Shown one piece after another: positions 610-23,346 of a DNA stretch of 23,346 nucleotides. Source of the DNA: a virus. Position numbers and translations under genes: made by a program. The notes under the pieces are model-generated. The model worked only from the letters and a program-made list of their open reading frames with translations, was not told the origin of the DNA and searched no databases. Location: the IMG/VR virus record IMGVR_UViG_3300009495_000081, positions 1-23,346 of that record; one strand, given 5' to 3'. Position 1 is the first letter of the stretch. Each line of letters starts with the position of its first letter.

Positions 610-1044
610 ATGGCCGCAAGAATCATAAAGAATAATCAGGAGTATAAGCAGACTGATGCTGACTATGAAATATATAGTGACTTTGATAAATCTTTTTTGC
701 CTAATCCCTTTACTAGGCAGTTGTCTCGTAAGACCAATGAATCTTCGGTTTCTATGGCAATTAGGAATCTTTTATTGACTAATAAATATGAGAGAAGAAG
801 AAATCCTGCTTTCGGTTCTACTATTTCGGCGTATCTGTTTGAACCTTTTTCTGAAACAGTATTGGGTGAGGTAGAAGATCGTGTTAGGAAAACAATTGAC
901 AATAATGAACCGAGGGTGCGAATTCTAGAACTGAATGTAACTACAAATGAGAAAGAAGACGAGTTAATTATAAGTTTAAAGTTTGCGACATCAACATCGC
1001 CGACACCCGAAAAACTCAACATTACACTTTATAGAGTAAGATAA
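610..1044 (+). CDS. gp25: Baseplate wedge protein gp25
   Basis: The 144-residue product matches the GPW/gp25 family, a small wedge component that joins the gp6 ring to the tail sheath and helps start sheath assembly. The recognisable stretch is about residues 20-110: SDFDKSF, then SVSMAIRNLLLTNKYERRRNPAFGS, then a segment with the FEP...TVLGEVEDRVRKTIDNNEPRV order. The conserved start of the family helix (AIRNLLLT) and the RV.I..L.V end are both present. Length is close to T4 gp25 (132 aa). The start codon follows TAAGG that overlaps the stop of the upstream gene. The stop TAA abuts the ATG of gp6 directly, so translation is probably coupled. Assignment is strong from sequence and gene order. 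Confidence 0.93.
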   Translation: MAARIIKNNQEYKQTDADYEIYSDFDKSFLPNPFTRQLSRKTNESSVSMAIRNLLLTNKYERRRNPAFGSTISAYLFEPFSETVLGEVEDRVRKTIDNNEPRVRILELNVTTNEKEDELIISLKFATSTSPTPEKLNITLYRVR

Positions 1045-2820
1045 ATGACTGACTTAACAACACTTGATTTTGATTCAATCAAGGGAAATTTAAAAAATTA
1101 TCTAAAAGAACAAACTGTCTTTCAAGATTATGATTTTGAAGGGTCAAACATCAATGTTCTTTTAGATATTCTTTCATATAATAGTTATCTTAATGGATTT
1201 TATTTGAATATGTTAGGAAGTGAAATGTTTCTTGACAGCGCTCAGCTGCGCGATTCTGTTATATCTCACACAAAAGAACTTAACTATTTACCTCGTTCTT
1301 TTAGGTCTGCTACTGCGAATGTCAATTTATCTATCTATGATGGTGACGCGGCCTCAGTTATTATTCCTCGCGGCACCTCGTTCACTGGAACATCGGGCAA
1401 TCGCAACTATACTTTTGTAACTGGTGATAATGTTGTTACGAAGCCGGGTGCTGCGGCTAATACTTTCATCGCAGAGAATATTAATTTATACGAAGGCGAT
1501 TATGTTTCAGATTCATTTGTAGTCAATAACGATGACTCACAACGATTTATATTATCAAATAAAACAATTGATGTTACAAGTCTTCTTGTAGGTGTGCTTG
1601 AAGATAACGGCGGCACTCTCAAGTCATATACCAGATCAGATTCTCTGTTTGGTCTTGGATCAACATCTGAGGTATTCTTTATTCAGCCGGCAGACAACGA
1701 CCGATATGAGATTGTATTTGGTGATGGTATCATTGGTCGCAAACCAAAAGATAGAGCAATCGTAACGATTCAGTATCGCGCTTGTAACGGTGAGTTACCT
1801 AACGGGATTGCGTTGTTCTCAGCTGATGGCAAAGTAGGAACAAGTCTCATTACAAATGTTGTTGTGAACGAGGCTGCTAAGGGTGGAACAATCTCAGAAA
1901 GTCTAGACTCCATTAAGTTCAATGCTCCTCGTGCGTTCACTACACAAGAGCGCGTTGTTACATCAAGGGATTATGAAACACTGCTGTCTAACCAGTTTAC
2001 TGAAATCAATGATGTCTCAGCTTATGGTGGTGAAGAGTTCGTGCCGCCGAAGTTTGGTAAAGTGATTATTGCTGTTGACTTGAAATCAACAGATGAGTTA
2101 CCTCCTTCACGAAGAGCGGCATTCGCTAGTTTCATAAAGAAGCGTTCGCCATTGGCCATTGATCCCATATTCGTGAAACCCGAATATACTTACATTAAAG
2201 TGGATTCTAAAGTTCGTTATAACCTGAACCAAACTCAGTTGACAGTAAACGATATACAGTTCATTGTCAAGTCATCAATTCAAAATTATAATGCGAGCAC
2301 CTTGAATGGATTTAATAAGACGCTTCGTTATAGTCGCCTTCTTGCTAGTATTGATAGTTCTCAGATATCAATCGTTAGTAACGATACTGAGATTCTCGCT
2401 GTCAAAACGATTGTGCCAGTGGTTAAGAAACCTACAAACTTCACCGTTGATTTTGGAGTCAAGTTAAAAGACAATATACCTAAGTTACCAAGTGTTCACG
2501 GTGCCAACGAAACTTCTATCATATCATCTTCTAAATTTATCTTTAGCGGGCACGAATGTTTCATTGAGGATGACGGCGGTGGTATACTGAATATCGGCAC
2601 AACATCATTCGGAACCCACGTTGCTCTTCGTAACATTGGTACAGTTAATTATGAGACAGGCGTTTTAGTAATAAATCAATTTGCGCCTACAGAACTGGTT
2701 GATAAATCTTTTAATATTTTTGCTAAAACTTTTGATCTAGATGTGAAGTCAGAGCGAAGAACCATTCTAAAAATCCGTCCAGAAGATATTACCGTGACTG
2801 TTGAACAGGTCAGACTCTAA
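1045..2820 (+). CDS. gp6: Baseplate wedge protein gp6 (baseplate J-like)
   Basis: The 591-residue product is the wedge subunit that forms the inner ring of the baseplate through dimers. The N-terminus (LTTLDFDSIKGNLKNYLKEQ, then GSNINVLLDILSYNSYLNGFYLNMLGSEMFLDSAQLRDSV) is typical of gp6 of marine T4-like phages. VFGDGIIGRKP near residues 225-240 and TQERVVTSRDYETLL near 300-315 are the usual baseplate J-like landmarks. The length is somewhat below T4 gp6 (660 aa). The gene starts immediately after the gp25 stop and its TAA shares a base with the ATG of gp7 (TAATG). No frameshift or odd segment was noticed. Confidence 0.93.
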   Translation: MTDLTTLDFDSIKGNLKNYLKEQTVFQDYDFEGSNINVLLDILSYNSYLNGFYLNMLGSEMFLDSAQLRDSVISHTKELNYLPRSFRSATANVNLSIYDGDAASVIIPRGTSFTGTSGNRNYTFVTGDNVVTKPGAAANTFIAENINLYEGDYVSDSFVVNNDDSQRFILSNKTIDVTSLLVGVLEDNGGTLKSYTRSDSLFGLGSTSEVFFIQPADNDRYEIVFGDGIIGRKPKDRAIVTIQYRACNGELPNGIALFSADGKVGTSLITNVVVNEAAKGGTISESLDSIKFNAPRAFTTQERVVTSRDYETLLSNQFTEINDVSAYGGEEFVPPKFGKVIIAVDLKSTDELPPSRRAAFASFIKKRSPLAIDPIFVKPEYTYIKVDSKVRYNLNQTQLTVNDIQFIVKSSIQNYNASTLNGFNKTLRYSRLLASIDSSQISIVSNDTEILAVKTIVPVVKKPTNFTVDFGVKLKDNIPKLPSVHGANETSIISSSKFIFSGHECFIEDDGGGILNIGTTSFGTHVALRNIGTVNYETGVLVINQFAPTELVDKSFNIFAKTFDLDVKSERRTILKIRPEDITVTVEQVRL

Positions 2821-5800
2821 TGCGTCAGATTGAAGACTTTATCAGTCCTCTTGTTGAGGGACAGTTTCCTGCGTTTTATCGTGACGAAGGAAAAATGTTT
2901 GTTACCTTTGTAAAGGCATATTATGAGTGGGCAGAAAATAATCTTCAACTACTGACACTTGAAGATACAACAAATTTCAATAAAAACGATACAGTCACGC
3001 AGGGAAATACCACTGGTAAAATCATTGCTGTGTATTCAACTTATTATATGGTTCAGCTGGATAAACTGGATCAGTTTAGGTGTAACACTCTCTGTAATGA
3101 CTTGACTCTTTGTACTAGTTCTTCCGGTGGTTCATCATACATTAACACCGCTGAAAGTTTTAATCACGAATACCTCGCAAGAAAGTTAGTAGATATTCGT
3201 GACATTGACACGACTATTGAGAAGTTCATTGTTTCATTTAAGAACAAGTATCTACCTGATATTCAGTTCAACACCGCGTCAAACAAAAGACTCTTTATCA
3301 AAAATGCTTTAGACTTTTATAGGGCAAAGGGCACCGAGAGAGCAGTAGATTTATTTTTCAAATTAATATACGGTATTGAAGCTGGTATATATTATCCTGC
3401 TGATGATTTGTTGAAAGCATCAGACAATGAGTTTGTCAATGTACAATATCTTGAAATTGATCCGAATGAAACCAATGTACAGTTGATTGGTCAGACAATC
3501 ACTGGCACTATAACTGGATCAACTGCCTATGCTGATAGACTGGTTCGTGTCAAGAAGAATTCTAGATTTATTGAAGTCGTTTATCTTGAGAATGTTTCAG
3601 GTAACTTTCAAACAGGTGAAGATGTAAGAACATATGATTTATCTACTAATGTAAGTGCGCGTATTCTCGGATCACTCTCATCGTTAACGATTGTTAAAAA
3701 TGACGAAGGATACAAATTGGGTGACATCATCGCTTTCACTGACGGTGATGGCCGTGGAGGTAAACTGCGTGTTGACTCGGTAGTAGACAAAACAGGTTTG
3801 GTAGAGTTTGAGTTAATAAATGGTGGTTGGGGTTATTCGGCGAATGCTAGCATTCTAGGATCAGAATCAATACTTTTAATGAATGACTTGACCAACGAGA
3901 ACGAGGAGTGGTTTTACCATCAGACAGCGTTTAAACAATTTGAAACAATCAAACAAAATCTGGTCAGTGTAAATTTAGCTAATACCAATGAAGATATGAG
4001 TTCATTTACAGTATCTTCTAATGTTGAGATTATCGATTCTGTAACCAATGCTGTGGTTTATGCGGGAAGAGTAACAAAGTCTTCAGCCACTGGATTTGTA
4101 ATGGACTATGATAGTTTTGTACCGATCGCCCCAACCCCTTATGTTTGGAATAAGTTCAACGGCAATTTAGACAACGATGGAAGTAGCAGTGGTTCTATAA
4201 ACATCACTTCTGGCGCTACACCAACATACGAAACTGGTCAAGATGGCGTGATCAATTCCGCGTTCGAATATACATCAGGCGACACTTTGCGCTTTGCAAC
4301 TTCACCCACGAATAACAACAGTGATTTTATGTGGGCGGTTTGGTTCAAACAAGACGGCTCTGCTTTTGGAGATACATCCGCAGTCATAGGCACTGGATAC
4401 AGCAATCAGTTAATCCACATAGGTGCAACAGCACCCAATTCAACCACTCCAAGCTTGCAGATACGGCACACTGTGAGCGGAGGTTGGCAAACTACTGTTG
4501 CTTCTACACAACCCACTTGGACAGACTGGAACCACTATACGTTAGTAAAGAGCGGAAATAATTTATACTTATATTTAAATGGTCTTTTGGTTGCTTCAGA
4601 TACTTTACCGGGGACTCAGACATATAATAATGATTTAAACCTTGGATTATATAACACTGGCAGAGTAACTGGCGATTTTGACGATCTTAAACTCTACACC
4701 ACCCTTCCCATTCCAGCAGGAGCTTCTTCCTTTAATACAGACTATATAGGCGATGTTAATACATTATCCTTAAAAAACGATACATTGTCAAGCGAAATAT
4801 CAACCAATACTGATATTTCTGCCACAGCAAATGTAATCGGAGTCAAAGACACTTTTAAAATTGATTATACAATCGGCGCCAATGATGCGATCACAGTGAA
4901 TGAAACAATATATCAACTGAATGATTCCGATCAAGAATATGCCAGTGCTAAAGTCAGTGAAATTAAAACTGAACCTCCATTGTATCAACTAACAGTAACA
5001 ACAAATCCGGGCGCAGGCGCGTTCAGAACAGATCGCCCAATATATTCGCGATCTACGGCACAGTCATATGCTATTGAAAAAATAAGTGAGTTTCAAGTTG
5101 GTGTAATCAGTATCAATAATATATTCTATGAAAATGCCAATACATACGGCGTTGAAACCGGATCTTATTCAAATGGTAGAGTTTTTAGTTATCGCACACC
5201 AGCAAACTTTACCGTCAGTAGTCGCAACAACCAGGTAACTTATACCAATTTTTACTCTAATACTATTATAGGTAATATTACTGGATACAACACTGCAAAT
5301 TTAGATGTCTCTACTACTTATGGCGGTGGCGCTGCCAATATTGATTATACGGCCACGACCGGTCTTACCTTCGAAGATGTTTCGATTGGTTCTGTTGAGT
5401 TCATTGTTCAGACCACTCAAGGCGAACTATACGCCAAAGACCCCATTTTTATAATACACGAACCAAAGTCTTATTATTTGGAAAGATATGATTATGAATT
5501 AAAATATTCGGGTGTCGGTCAAAACTTTGTCGTAGGCGAAACGATTGAAGGAAACACCGGTTATGCCAAGGCGGTAATCACCTCACATGACCTAAATACA
5601 CAGACTATCAACGCAACTAGAATTACACTACCCACATCAAGAGGTTTTCAATCCATTTCGGACGACGATCCATCAACAAACGATTTTGTTGTAGGTGAAA
5701 CTTTTACAAGTCTTGAAACGGGTCTTACAGTTACATTGTCATATGTCAACGAATTTAGAAACTATCCTAGGACTGGGTTAAACGCGAATGTCACTTCAGA

Positions 5801-6257
5801 GGCGCTGTCTGGTAATAATTTTATTTCTACTACAACCTTGATTGACTCTGGATTTGGTTACAGTGATGGTGAGACAGTAAACGCTACGCTTAATCGTGAT
5901 CCGACCGTCACATCATCTTTCAAACTAGGTCTTGGAAAACAGGGCATTGCTCCTGGTTACTTTACAAGTCGCAGGGGGTTTTTAAGTAGTGATAAATACC
6001 TACATGACAATGATTTTTATCAAGAGTATTCTTATCAAGTATTAACCTCATTACCTTTTGATACTTATCGTAAAGTTTTAGTTGATGTATTACATGTTTC
6101 AGGCACAAAACCTTTTGGTAAATATTTTAGTACGACATCATCTGATATTGGAGCTTCACTTGATATTACAGTAGATATAGTTCGTTTGACTGAGATGTTT
6201 GTTAGTTTTAGTTTGTTTGAGAATCAAAACACATTTTATACTGCTAGTATTTCATAA
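2820..6257 (+). CDS. gp7: Baseplate wedge protein gp7 with an inserted LamG-like lectin domain
   Basis: The 1145-residue product is the gp7 wedge subunit, which links gp6, gp8 and gp10-type outer parts of the baseplate. The N-terminus (LVEGQFPAFYRDEGKMF, then FVKAYYEW) and the segment IEKFIVSFKNKYLPDIQ with DFYRAKGTERAVDLFFKLIYG (about residues 135-185) are typical of marine T4-like gp7. Later parts carry short beta modules such as FVVGETIEGNTGYAKAVI and GFGYSDGETV. Residues about 436-632 look like an added LamG/concanavalin A-like domain (Laminin_G_3 type): FMWAVWFKQDG, WTDWNHYTLVKSGNNLYLYL, NGLLVASDT and a closing DFDDLKLYTTLP. That domain could bind glycans at the cell surface, which is inference. 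Total length is above T4 gp7 (1032 aa). The start ATG overlaps the gp6 stop, so coupled translation is likely. Confidence 0.9.
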   Translation: MRQIEDFISPLVEGQFPAFYRDEGKMFVTFVKAYYEWAENNLQLLTLEDTTNFNKNDTVTQGNTTGKIIAVYSTYYMVQLDKLDQFRCNTLCNDLTLCTSSSGGSSYINTAESFNHEYLARKLVDIRDIDTTIEKFIVSFKNKYLPDIQFNTASNKRLFIKNALDFYRAKGTERAVDLFFKLIYGIEAGIYYPADDLLKASDNEFVNVQYLEIDPNETNVQLIGQTITGTITGSTAYADRLVRVKKNSRFIEVVYLENVSGNFQTGEDVRTYDLSTNVSARILGSLSSLTIVKNDEGYKLGDIIAFTDGDGRGGKLRVDSVVDKTGLVEFELINGGWGYSANASILGSESILLMNDLTNENEEWFYHQTAFKQFETIKQNLVSVNLANTNEDMSSFTVSSNVEIIDSVTNAVVYAGRVTKSSATGFVMDYDSFVPIAPTPYVWNKFNGNLDNDGSSSGSINITSGATPTYETGQDGVINSAFEYTSGDTLRFATSPTNNNSDFMWAVWFKQDGSAFGDTSAVIGTGYSNQLIHIGATAPNSTTPSLQIRHTVSGGWQTTVASTQPTWTDWNHYTLVKSGNNLYLYLNGLLVASDTLPGTQTYNNDLNLGLYNTGRVTGDFDDLKLYTTLPIPAGASSFNTDYIGDVNTLSLKNDTLSSEISTNTDISATANVIGVKDTFKIDYTIGANDAITVNETIYQLNDSDQEYASAKVSEIKTEPPLYQLTVTTNPGAGAFRTDRPIYSRSTAQSYAIEKISEFQVGVISINNIFYENANTYGVETGSYSNGRVFSYRTPANFTVSSRNNQVTYTNFYSNTIIGNITGYNTANLDVSTTYGGGAANIDYTATTGLTFEDVSIGSVEFIVQTTQGELYAKDPIFIIHEPKSYYLERYDYELKYSGVGQNFVVGETIEGNTGYAKAVITSHDLNTQTINATRITLPTSRGFQSISDDDPSTNDFVVGETFTSLETGLTVTLSYVNEFRNYPRTGLNANVTSEALSGNNFISTTTLIDSGFGYSDGETVNATLNRDPTVTSSFKLGLGKQGIAPGYFTSRRGFLSSDKYLHDNDFYQEYSYQVLTSLPFDTYRKVLVDVLHVSGTKPFGKYFSTTSSDIGASLDITVDIVRLTEMFVSFSLFENQNTFYTASIS
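4125..4716 (+). other. LamG/concanavalin A-like domain encoded inside gp7
   Basis: This is the DNA for residues about 436-632 of gp7. The predicted strands follow the LamG_3 order: WNKFNGNLDNDG, SAFEYTSGDTLRFA, DFMWAVWFKQDG, then a sandwich segment, WNHYTLVKSGNNLYLYLNG, and FDDLKLYTTLP. The motif of a buried W-(H/N)-H-hydrophobic strand followed by a basic turn and LYLNG is the most diagnostic part. The reading frame is continuous with gp7 on both sides. Boundaries are approximate because no alignment could be run. Confidence 0.78.
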
Positions 6258-6292: not shown

Positions 6293-8419
6293 ATGGCAAA
6301 GAAAATTGTACCCAGTGAAATAAAAACACTCATTCTGCAACAATTGGCGGAATCTGTTGGTGAACCGGCAAACACAACATATTATGCCTTTGCCGGTGAT
6401 CACATGGCCACTGGTGTAACTGAGAATGATGTCACCCAACCTAACGAAAGTTATCGTAACTTGACGGTTGAAACTTTTAGGAATATGATATTCGGTAAAA
6501 AGTTAACGCCTAGTGATATTACCCTAATGGTTAAAAGATACGATTGGGCCTCAGATACAAAATATGACATGTATGATGACGAAGATGCTCTATTAGGTAC
6601 AAAGAAGTATTTTGTTGTAGTGCAAGAGGTTAGTAACTATCATGTATACAAATGTCTATTCAATAATAATGGTCAAGCATCAACTGTAAAGCCTGTCTTT
6701 CAGGACAACACATTTGACGAGGCACTCTTTGCCGCCGGTGATGACTACTATGAGACTTCTGATGGATATCAGTGGAAATACATGTACACGATCTCTTCGG
6801 TTGATTTCAATAAGTTTTCTTCACAAGAATATATTCCTATGATTGCAAACACATCAGTGCAGAATACCGCTGTTGCTGGGGCAATCAATGTGGTTAAGGT
6901 TGATGCGGCCGGTAAAAATTATAATAATTATATCACTGACACGACATTTACTGCCAGTGATATTCATATTGACGGTAATCAGAGACTATTTAAGTTATCT
7001 GGCGTTACAAATTCAACTCAAAACTTTTATAGTAATACCATTATTACTCTTACTTCAGGCACCGGTGCTGGACAATTTAAGAAAGTTATAAGTTCCGTCG
7101 GAAATACTAGTGGTGTATTTGTAGAAATTGCAGGCGTAGATACTACAGACGCTAACACATTTTCAATAAGCCCAACACAGGATACACATTACGAAATATC
7201 GCCGCAAGTTTTGTTGACAGATAATGGCGAACAGACAGTGAATGCTTTCGCGAGAGCTATTATCGATCCTTTATCCTCTAATAGTGTAAGTAAGGTTGAG
7301 GTCTTAAATCCAGGGAAAAATTATTCTTTCTCAACTGCATCTGTTCTTCAAGGTATTGCTGATGTAGTAACACCATCAAATGCAACTGTGCGGCCAATAC
7401 TTTCACCTCCAGGTGGCCACGGTTTTGATCCTGCATCGGAGTTAGACTCGACCGCAATATGTTTTTCTTCATTATTTTCTCGTGATGAAAGCAACACACT
7501 CTCTGCCGAAAATACTTTTGGCACATTTGGTCTAATCCGTGATCCTCTCTATTCTAATGTAGAAATTTATATTGAAAAAGAAAGCAATAGCGCGGGATCA
7601 GATGGCATATTCAGAACCGGTGAACTTGTTAGACAAATTCAGACAATTGAGTTAAATGATTTGGTAACAGTAAATTCATCAATAAGCACAGTTGCTATAA
7701 CATCCCCATCAGCTGATACAAATGATCTTGAAAAGTTTTTTCAGACTGGCGATTTTATATATATATCTGATGAGACTGTCGGTGCCTCTGTTGAGAATAA
7801 GTTTATTTCAACCGTGACTTCGGTCAGCAATAGTTCGCACATCGTGGTTGCATCTAATGTTAACTTCACTTCAACATCAGCACGATTACACTTTGCCCGA
7901 CCGGTCGCTAATGGTGTGGTGAAATCTATCTCAAGTTCAACAAGATTGTATCTTGAGAAATGCAGTCCAGGTTTTTCGAAAGAAGGTTTTATTATTGCCG
8001 CGAACAGTTTCGCCTCTGCCACGATCACAGGCGTTGATGTGAATGAAAGAATTGGCGGATCAACTCCCGCATTTAATTATGTAACTTATAACCAGATGGT
8101 TCGTTGTGTGGGCACCGGAGGTGAGTTTACAAACGATGAAGAAGTCAAACAAACTAACTCAAGCAATGTTGTAATATCGACAGCTCGTGTACACTCATCA
8201 AACACAACTCAGCTGAGTTTAACAAGATTATCGGGCAATCTTGCAACAAATATCAATATTGTTGGTGTCACTTCTGGTGAGATTTTTGAGAGTGGGTTTT
8301 ATAAATATGATGGTGATATCGATCCAACGAGCGGCAATATCATCTATCTACAGAACGATGTATCCGTTACAAGAGAATCAACTCAATCAGAACAAATCCG
8401 TATTATTTTGGAGTTTTAA
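6293..8419 (+). CDS. gp8: Baseplate wedge protein gp8, extended
   Basis: The 708-residue product is a gp8-type wedge subunit, which in T4 bridges gp7 and gp10 in each wedge. The family signal is in residues 1-190: QQLAESVGEPANTTYYAFAGD, then YRNLTVETFRNMIFGKKL, MVKRYDW, YFVVVQEVSNYHVYKCLFNN and DGYQWKYMYTISSVDFNKF with SQEYIPMI. T4 gp8 is only 334 aa. The extra residues after about 190 are beta-rich modules, including a NPGKNYSFSTASV repeat-type segment also seen in gp7 and the next gene. The ribosome site before ATG is weak (GAG in CTGAGATAAAAG). The stop is followed after three bases by the next ATG. Confidence 0.9.
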   Translation: MAKKIVPSEIKTLILQQLAESVGEPANTTYYAFAGDHMATGVTENDVTQPNESYRNLTVETFRNMIFGKKLTPSDITLMVKRYDWASDTKYDMYDDEDALLGTKKYFVVVQEVSNYHVYKCLFNNNGQASTVKPVFQDNTFDEALFAAGDDYYETSDGYQWKYMYTISSVDFNKFSSQEYIPMIANTSVQNTAVAGAINVVKVDAAGKNYNNYITDTTFTASDIHIDGNQRLFKLSGVTNSTQNFYSNTIITLTSGTGAGQFKKVISSVGNTSGVFVEIAGVDTTDANTFSISPTQDTHYEISPQVLLTDNGEQTVNAFARAIIDPLSSNSVSKVEVLNPGKNYSFSTASVLQGIADVVTPSNATVRPILSPPGGHGFDPASELDSTAICFSSLFSRDESNTLSAENTFGTFGLIRDPLYSNVEIYIEKESNSAGSDGIFRTGELVRQIQTIELNDLVTVNSSISTVAITSPSADTNDLEKFFQTGDFIYISDETVGASVENKFISTVTSVSNSSHIVVASNVNFTSTSARLHFARPVANGVVKSISSSTRLYLEKCSPGFSKEGFIIAANSFASATITGVDVNERIGGSTPAFNYVTYNQMVRCVGTGGEFTNDEEVKQTNSSNVVISTARVHSSNTTQLSLTRLSGNLATNINIVGVTSGEIFESGFYKYDGDIDPTSGNIIYLQNDVSVTRESTQSEQIRIILEF
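8300..8307 (+). promoter_or_regulatory. Possible late promoter inside the 3' end of gp8
   Basis: A perfect TATAAATA lies 116 bases upstream of the 1592-aa gene. It is within coding sequence (reads through YKYD), and in AT-rich DNA a match of this kind is expected by chance a few times per window, so support is modest. Confidence 0.3.
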
Positions 8420-20331: not shown

Positions 20332-21990
20332 ATGGCGAATAAGAAGTTTGAGACCCTCGATGGTATCAACTCAACTGGAGCGGTCAATGTTACAAATACA
20401 GTGACCGTTTCTGCCAATCTTATAGTCGATACAGACACCCTTTTTGTAGACACATCCGCAGATAGTGTCGGAGTCAACACAACACCCAGTTCTTCCTATG
20501 CACTTGATGTGGCAGGAGACATTCATACTTCCACCAGTGTAATCGTTGGTGGCAGTCCGAATGTCACTTTCACCCACAATGGCACTGTGTTAAACGTAAC
20601 GGGTTCAAATGTAAACTTCGATGCTAATACCCTATACATAGATACTACAAATAATAGAGTCGGCGTCAACACAGCACCTAGTTCTAATGCGCTTACCGTG
20701 GTAGGAGATGTTAGTGCTACTAAATTTTGGGGCGATGGATCGGGTCTCACAAACATCTCTGCTGATGGCGTTGAGATTTCAGGTAACGCAAATACATTTG
20801 ATAATTTAGATTCAACGTCGTTTTTAAGATCAGATGCACAGGATATTCATACCAGCGGATTTCTAATCTTCACTTCTTCTGGTCCAAGGGTTAATGATAA
20901 TATTCCGTTGTCGTTTGGTACTGGATCGGATGTTACAATAAAACATGATGGCACTGATTTAATAATTACTGGCGCGGTGCCAGCGGATTCAGCACACGTA
21001 ATCAATGGATTTATTGATGAAGATACCATGTTATCTAACAGTGATGCATTAGTTCCAACACAACAGTCAGTAAAAGCATACGTTGATACTCAAATATTAA
21101 CAAAAGATAATACGGATGAAATAACAGAAGGTTCGACTAACCTTTACTATACAGATGCTAGAGCAGATGCTAGAGTAGATGCAGGATTCACTGCTAAGTC
21201 AACAACAAATTTAAGTGAAGGAACAAACCTTTACTATACAGATGCTAGAGCAGATGCTAGAATTGCAGCAGCTGATACTGATGATGTATCAGAAGGTTCG
21301 ACTAACCTTTACTATACAGATGCTAGAGCAGATGCTAGAATTGCAGCAGCTGATACTGATGATGTATCAGAAGGTTCGACTAACCTTTACTATACAGATG
21401 CTAGAGTAGATACACATCTAAATCAAACCAATCCAACAAGTGGATATGTACTGAGTTGGAATGGAACAGATTATGCGTGGGTAGATAATGCTGGTTATAC
21501 CAATTCAGATGTAGATACTCACTTAAACACCAGTTCAGCAGCATCTTCTGAGGTGTTGAGTTGGACTGGCACTGATTATGACTGGATACCCGCTCCATCT
21601 GGTGTCGCCGGATCAGACACACAGGTTCAGTTTAATAATAGTGGAACATTAGCGGGATCATCTGGATTTGTTTTCAACTCTGGTACAAATTCTGTAACCA
21701 TAACAGGTGATATGTCGGCAGCTAATTTCAACTCAACTTCTGATGTGAGATTGAAAGACAACATAGAAACTCTTGATGGTACAAAAGTTTATGATATGCG
21801 TGGTGTTTCATACACGAAAGGTGGTAGAGAAGAAAGTGGTGTAATCGCACAAGAAATGCAAGAAATTGCTCCTGAACTAGTGGACAACACCGGAGAATAT
21901 CTCACTGTTTCTTATGGTAATTTGGTTGGATATTTAATTGAAGCAGTCAAAGACCTGAAGAAAGAAGTTGATATATTAAAAAATAAATAA
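20332..21990 (+). CDS. Tail fibre with C-terminal Peptidase_S74 chaperone
   Basis: The 552-residue product is a trimeric tail fibre. Its N-terminal part has beta modules such as DTLFVDTSADSVGVNTTPSS and a second copy, NTLYIDTTNNRVGVNTAPSS, then KFWGDGSGLTNISADGVEIS. ALVPTQQSVKAYVDTQI leads into tandem TNLYYTDARADAR repeats (about residues 265-360). A WVDNAGY / SWTGTDYDWIPAPSG region follows. The end is a Peptidase_S74 intramolecular chaperone: SDVRLKDNIETL, GVIAQEMQEIAPELV, YLTVSYGNLVGYLIEAVKDL and a final coiled coil. S470 and K475 are in the places of the catalytic Ser-Lys pair, so cleavage before S470 should release about 83 residues after folding. GAGAG precedes the ATG. Confidence 0.9.
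   Translation: MANKKFETLDGINSTGAVNVTNTVTVSANLIVDTDTLFVDTSADSVGVNTTPSSSYALDVAGDIHTSTSVIVGGSPNVTFTHNGTVLNVTGSNVNFDANTLYIDTTNNRVGVNTAPSSNALTVVGDVSATKFWGDGSGLTNISADGVEISGNANTFDNLDSTSFLRSDAQDIHTSGFLIFTSSGPRVNDNIPLSFGTGSDVTIKHDGTDLIITGAVPADSAHVINGFIDEDTMLSNSDALVPTQQSVKAYVDTQILTKDNTDEITEGSTNLYYTDARADARVDAGFTAKSTTNLSEGTNLYYTDARADARIAAADTDDVSEGSTNLYYTDARADARIAAADTDDVSEGSTNLYYTDARVDTHLNQTNPTSGYVLSWNGTDYAWVDNAGYTNSDVDTHLNTSSAASSEVLSWTGTDYDWIPAPSGVAGSDTQVQFNNSGTLAGSSGFVFNSGTNSVTITGDMSAANFNSTSDVRLKDNIETLDGTKVYDMRGVSYTKGGREESGVIAQEMQEIAPELVDNTGEYLTVSYGNLVGYLIEAVKDLKKEVDILKNK
21126..21410 (+). repeat. In-frame tandem repeats with a 78-base period
   Basis: The repeats encode variants of EGSTNLYYTDARADAR with IAAADTDDVS linkers. 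The copies beginning ATTGCAGCAG at 21262 and 21340 are 78 bases apart and nearly identical until the last copy breaks off at about 21408. Earlier copies near 21126 and 21218 have diverged linkers. Confidence 0.88.
21982..21989 (+). promoter_or_regulatory. Candidate late promoter before the collagen-like fibre gene
   Basis: AATAAATA matches TATAAATA at seven of eight positions and overlaps the stop of the 552-aa fibre gene. It is 56 bases upstream of the ATG at 22045. The poly-A context around KNK codons raises the chance of a fortuitous match. Confidence 0.4.

Positions 21991-22044: not shown

Positions 22045-23346
<1,302 letters not shown>

Follow-up and report, generated by a model that had tools for sequence, protein, structure and literature searches.

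A LamG-like module in the gp7-like wedge protein of a T4-like virus has a near-identical twin in a tail-fibre-like gene of another phage

The gp7-like baseplate wedge protein described here, from a marine phage, carries, joined in frame, a LamG-like module that is almost the same at the DNA level as part of a fibre-like gene in a podovirus-like contig. Our preferred reading, to which we assign a probability of roughly 0.6, is that the module is a recent copy from a tail-fibre gene in another phage, placed in a loop of the gp7 central arm, where it would act as an auxiliary binder of the host surface, likely of glycan. The whole stretch of DNA analysed, hereafter the window, is a virus record of 23,346 bases, and the features that concern us are listed below.

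610..1044, + strand: gp25-like wedge protein (PF04965)
1045..2820, + strand: gp6-like wedge protein (PF21379, phrog_219)
2820..6257, + strand: gp7-like baseplate wedge protein, 1145 aa (phrog_17744, PF23786)
2820..3989, + strand: conserved N-terminal core of gp7, residues 1-390 (anchor profile, which matches 108 distinct sequences)
3990..5744, + strand: variable central arm of gp7, approximately residues 391-975, which holds the LamG module; the shortest gp7s from cultured phages lack most of it
4011..4126 (start approximate), + strand: left half of the small gp7 beta-domain that receives the insert (by eye, from the alignments of relatives and the strands of the L007 model)
4127..4752, + strand: LamG-like module, putative transferred segment, residues 436-644 (95.0% DNA identity to L009 6027-6652)
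4278..4700, + strand: Pfam Laminin_G_3 match, residues 487-627 (PF13385, 40 bits against a cut-off of 27.6)
4753..4823 (end approximate), + strand: right half of the same small beta-domain (by eye, from the alignments of relatives)
5745..6179, + strand: conserved C-terminal core of gp7 (anchor profile)
6293..8419, + strand: gp8-like wedge protein (phrog_438; PF09215 only below cut-off)

The product of the open reading frame at 2820-6257 is a gp7-like, T4-type wedge protein. It matched a baseplate wedge family of PHROGs (phrog_17744, E 4.9e-113) and PF23786 of Pfam (28.4 bits against a cut-off of 27), and with gp25 and gp6 upstream and gp8 downstream the gene order is gp25-gp6-gp7-gp8. The same order is seen in phiM12, except that a further gene separates gp25 from gp6, and T4 has gp6-gp7-gp8. 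Elsewhere in the window, 20332-21990 encodes a protein with a Peptidase_S74 chaperone match close to its C-terminal end, and a long run of GFTGS-type repeats occupies 22045-23346, in an open frame that extends to the window end. The longer contig of the window's lineage has an 864-aa open reading frame matching Pfam Collagen (L140 160-2751) and encodes an 877-aa protein in which glycosyltransferase domains of two kinds are matched (L139 6528-9158).

The preliminary description of this DNA had called gp7 a conserved internal assembly protein, and neither adjective survives well. It is mainly the two end regions that are conserved, and length varies widely, from 739 to 2072 aa among 79 complete sequences and from 523 to 1288 aa among seven from cultured phages, the extremes being cultured phage pf16 (523 aa) and a viral contig (2072 aa). 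In Ochrobactrum phage OC the N-terminal anchor ends at residue 202 and the C-terminal anchor starts at residue 205, and therefore nearly the whole central part is missing there. As to being internal, in the portion of a T4 review available to us gp7 belongs to the pins, on the periphery of the baseplate (PMC3004832).

Since relatives were misaligned into the LamG region of the fused gp7, we folded in its place residues 1-945 of L007, a relative in which the site is nearly empty (mean pLDDT 75.9, pTM 0.52). The first three Foldseek rows for this model were chains of 5iv5 (5iv5_BJ), 9f4a (9f4a_A0) and 5hx2 (5hx2_A), entries that contain gp7 chains (1032 aa) of T4 or its Klebsiella relative; the rows that followed had E values of 5e-3 or worse and were mostly unrelated beta-barrels. 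Residues 763-853 of T4 gp7 aligned within model range 203-852 with a Z of 10.2 over 88-89 residues, and searching the solved-structure sequences with a gp7 profile returned two chance-level rows only. The protein thus resembles T4 gp7 in core fold, as judged from the L007 model, and in gene order, whereas the central arm and the LamG module have no aligned counterpart in T4 gp7, a comparison in which long models can hide single-domain matches. We infer from the model that the central arm is probably an addition between parts of the gp7 core. The point of insertion falls in a loop of the L007 model, between predicted strands 424-428 and 445-448.

That a LamG-like domain is present in this gp7 and joined in frame, as first proposed, is borne out both by the PF13385 match and by the near twin in a fibre-like gene. 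The reading frame is intact over the 626 bases of the module and continues in frame on both sides. DNA identity to the twin starts with the third base of codon 436 (4127) and ends at about base 4752, residue 644, and both edges are sharp. The original limits of residues 436-632 were therefore correct to the codon at the start and approximately 12 residues short at the end (base 4716). The module has a G+C content of 43.5% against 36.8% in the rest of gp7, a weak contrast given that 187 of 1136 equal-length stretches of the window are as rich.

Structure prediction gave the expected fold at modest confidence. An AF2 model built from a 6-row alignment (mean pLDDT 61, pTM 0.69) is a beta-sandwich, and its VIA-align matches include the C-terminal part of a trans-sialidase (Z 12.4), the minor pilin PilC (12.4), AbnA domain 4 (11.8), laminin-511 (11.3) and galectin-8 (10.7). 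Among viral models, the matches included several phage proteins with LamG or concanavalin A-like in their names. The top Foldseek rows were chains of clostridial toxin complexes; this reflects the common jelly-roll fold and has no bearing on toxicity. Comparison with LamG folds, which the preliminary description had suggested, thus supports a predicted lectin-like beta-sandwich.

The twin lies at 6027-6652 of contig L009, where window positions 4127-4752 align with 31 mismatches over 626 bases and no gaps. It recurs at 4927-5552 of L008, which is 99.98% identical to L009, so that the two are records of nearly one sequence. No DNA similarity between the window and the twin's contig was found beyond the module, in a comparison that covered 20 kb of the 25.7-kb contig L138 and the overlapping 12.4-kb L009. 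The twin module, 93% identical to the window's, sits within a 1057-aa fibre-like protein that has a tail-fibre profile match and whose gene adjoins the head gene. L009 has an SU10-type portal match, a terminase and a major head protein, and among the best-placed named records for the last, at 28-34% identity, are Anabaena phage A-4L and Phormidium phage Pf-WMP3. Both of these are podoviruses, and we describe the contig as podovirus-like. At an E of 1 Pfam did not list LamG in the L009 fibre protein despite the close similarity of its module to the window's, which we suspect may be due to the low-complexity N-terminal part of that protein; PHROGs gave a weak match for the module region through phrog_14220.

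Beyond the window's lineage, all homologues of the module that we found (42-93% identical, L009 included) are in proteins with tail-fibre profile matches, in keeping with the earlier remark that such domains usually occur in fibres or decoration proteins. The protein of L051 (module 59% identical; L052 and L053 are identical to L051) also has Mtd_N and YadA_head. The modules of L054, L055 and L056 are 42-43% identical; Mtd_N is present in L055 and L056, while L054 lacks Mtd_N but matches a tail-fibre profile and has two LamG stretches, and L056 likewise has a second LamG stretch and a tail-fibre profile match. L051 also encodes a short, 350-aa gp7-like protein (3345-4394) that is followed directly by the LamG fibre gene, which thus stands beside wedge genes. 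A tblastn search of phage records with the module (E 0.01) gave no match, and no solved-structure sequence was matched either by the module alone (E up to 1) or by its profile (E up to 0.1). When genomes of bacteria and archaea were scanned, 32 stretches fitted the pattern and none of them was a relative.

It can be seen by eye that the piece following LamG in the fibres of L009, L051 and L055 is missing from gp7, and gp7 therefore carries a sub-piece of the fibre module. Over 3.1 kb upstream, L009 is 98.1% identical to contigs L236 and L237, which encode a 587-aa fibre without LamG. The difference is not a clean LamG-only one, as L009 4742-6762 differs from both apart from a piece of approximately 159 columns at 84%. 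From the fibre location of the homologues, the LamG-free fibre of L236 and L237 and the lack of the following piece in gp7, we infer that transfer probably ran from fibre to gp7.

The sequence of events that we favour would then begin with the recent copying of a LamG-like, lectin-fold module from a tail-fibre gene of another phage. The module would have landed in a permissive loop within gp7's variable central arm, where it presumably folds independently and may be exposed on the rim of the baseplate; the wedge would thereby display, beside the fibres, a further means of binding the host surface, with glycan as the most likely target. Of the roles considered, help in binding a surface or a glycan is the likeliest.

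LamG folds also serve protein-protein contacts. A less probable alternative, to which we would give perhaps one chance in five, is that the module is structural, acting as a clamp between gp7 and either a fibre or an adjacent wedge protein without contacting the host. Insertion domains of wedge proteins can hold fibres, as an excerpt of work on gp31B and the long tail fibre of Anabaena phage A-1(L) indicates (PMC10966104), and T4 gp7 contacts gp9 and gp10, again in the portion of the review cited above (PMC3004832). However, the module also occurs in fibre-like proteins of unrelated phages, where the same wedge partner is unlikely, and the closest complete gp7 relatives manage without it.

Somewhat less probable still is that the insert is a passenger tolerated in a permissive loop and has no present function. 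The twins differ by 22 nonsynonymous and nine synonymous changes, where approximately 24 to 7 would be expected under neutrality; with a pN/pS of 0.72 these differences are near neutral and give no sign of selection keeping a function. Moreover, the module is confined to a single gp7 lineage among the gp7s examined. Against this, the frame has stayed intact, with no gaps among the differences from the twin, and another gp7 lineage keeps a different module at nearly the same site; both observations are compatible with a passenger as well. We continue to favour host-surface binding over clamp and passenger alike.

The preliminary description had proposed aligning this gp7 to its relatives, and the segment is indeed missing from those examined. 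L005, L006 and L007, the closest complete relatives, are 60-62% identical to the window protein over residues 1-430 and 46-48% in the C-terminal part, and have no LamG. Residues 428 and 639 of the window gp7 correspond to 426 and 436 of L007, whose site is nearly empty, and L005 has approximately 115 aa of other sequence there, by eye partly a repeat of the small beta-domain. The gp7s of L005 (2287-5874) and L007 (2810-6172) also have a C-terminal extension of approximately 170-180 aa with imperfect repeats by eye, which the window gp7 lacks. An alignment in which gp7 and its relatives were cut in two was discarded, the C-terminal pieces having aligned poorly (15-21% identity).

Among the loci gathered, the N-terminal anchor was found in 124 open reading frames (108 distinct), of which 94 distinct sequences also have the later anchor and so span the site; 79 are complete, and some of the others are fragments. 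The LamG module is present in one of the 79 complete and three of the 94 site-spanning sequences, all of the window's lineage, in a limited sample to which one relative search contributed its best 80 of at least 563 relatives. The loci nearest by flank DNA, L059 (about 79%) and L027 (about 73%), both end before the site. Pfam, run on 61 gp7s (23 plus 38), found LamG in the window protein only; 54 of these are letter-identical to members of the 108 and the other seven apparently differ only in the reading of the start codon. None of the seven gp7s of cultured phages has LamG, by Pfam or by the module profile, and in phiM12 approximately 186 other residues align in the LamG interval. Set against the gp7 sequences of the relatives examined, the module is inserted sequence. 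That it is instead an old integral part of gp7, lost by most relatives, could draw on the highly variable length of the protein; it is very improbable, given that the DNA of the module is 95% identical to part of a fibre-like gene in a different type of phage and that 78 of the 79 complete sequences do not have it.

The same gp7 junction occurs in four database records, assemblies that possibly share reads: the window, L002 (four mismatches over 12.3 kb), L003 (four over 11.6 kb) and L004 (two over 4.3 kb). An assembly artefact joining two phages, conceivable with metagenome contigs when contig names place both kinds of phage in one metagenome (L002, L236), is the least credible reading of all, given a junction common to four records and in frame on both sides and a module that differs by 5% from its twin.

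The other gp7 lineage referred to above comprises L029, L018, L019 and L028, whose gp7s have a 283-aa insert, unlike LamG, approximately 20 residues beyond the same predicted beta-strand as at the LamG site.

L029 7177-8025: 283-aa module in gp7, near the LamG site

This module is found in gp7 only in the L029 lineage, across L029 and 79 of the 80 loci retained from 84 with relatives. When six other proteins that carry it were profiled, one matched a tail-fibre family best, one baseplate wedge families, one nothing, and three a family of unknown function and a protease family. It is also present at 60-80% identity in 85 phage records named Synechococcus, Prochlorococcus or cyanophage, for example in Syn33_094, annotated as a baseplate wedge subunit, beside gp8 and gp9. 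A tentative extension, which we regard as possible rather than probable, is that the gp7 central arm is an exchange bay, a loop where modules for binding or with enzyme activity are exchanged with fibre genes across phage families; attachment to the host would then also be set by the wedge.

A wedge protein with an added carbohydrate-binding module is already known, and Gp119 of the Herelleviridae phage Vp4 is a close precedent. According to the part of that study available to us (PMC11406892), Gp119 has two extra CBMs and decorates cells, whereas Deep-Blue Gp177, without CBMs, does not; like the gp7 described here it is a wedge protein with an extra carbohydrate-binding-type fold that its homologues lack. 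Cell binding is a feature of Gp119, while the present case is known from its sequence and predicted fold. Gp119 is also a BW3 wedge that forms the proximal part of a fibre, with CBM16-like and xylanase-CBM-like folds and a Bacillus host (same excerpt, PMC11406892), in contrast to the gp7 of a T4-like phage with a LamG fold and near-identical sequence in a fibre-like gene. The proteins of L051, L054, L055 and L056 have a homologous module (42-59% identical) but are fibre-like rather than wedge proteins.

Likewise, excerpts on phage AXL3 report a Laminin G domain in its central tail hub, gp21, a non-fibre tail protein, and note that others predicted a role in host specificity; this is a siphophage tail hub and not a wedge protein (PMC7504290). 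Smug et al. (2023) found that domains of receptor-binding proteins are shared with other classes, baseplate proteins included; the word 'Lectin' is absent from their text, of which section 11 names other domains, and unlike that survey the present case concerns one recent event resolved to the base (PMC10684548). Our literature search, in the portions of text it returned, recognised no description of a LamG domain in gp7, the closest being the Vp4 (PMC11406892) and AXL3 (PMC7504290) studies. For pelagimyophages, excerpts of PMC7029224 report unidentified structural proteins that carry concanavalin A, Mtd and YadA domains; there, pelagimyophages and cyanomyophages are said to lack T4 gp7, which VrlC apparently replaces. 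That absence sits uneasily with the gp7 found here, although the N-terminal part of this protein weakly matches Pelagibacter phage HTVC008M (23.7%, E 4e-8).

The move of a lectin-fold module has here been caught at 5% DNA divergence, between kinds of phage and between a fibre-like gene and one of the baseplate core. Were the module exposed and able to bind, attachment to the host could be altered outside the fibre genes, and prediction of host range from fibres only would miss it. Should the central arm prove to be a site of exchange, attachment would be changeable in a single recombination step and set by the wedge besides the fibres. The near-identical twin suggests that phages can add receptor-binding parts to the baseplate itself.
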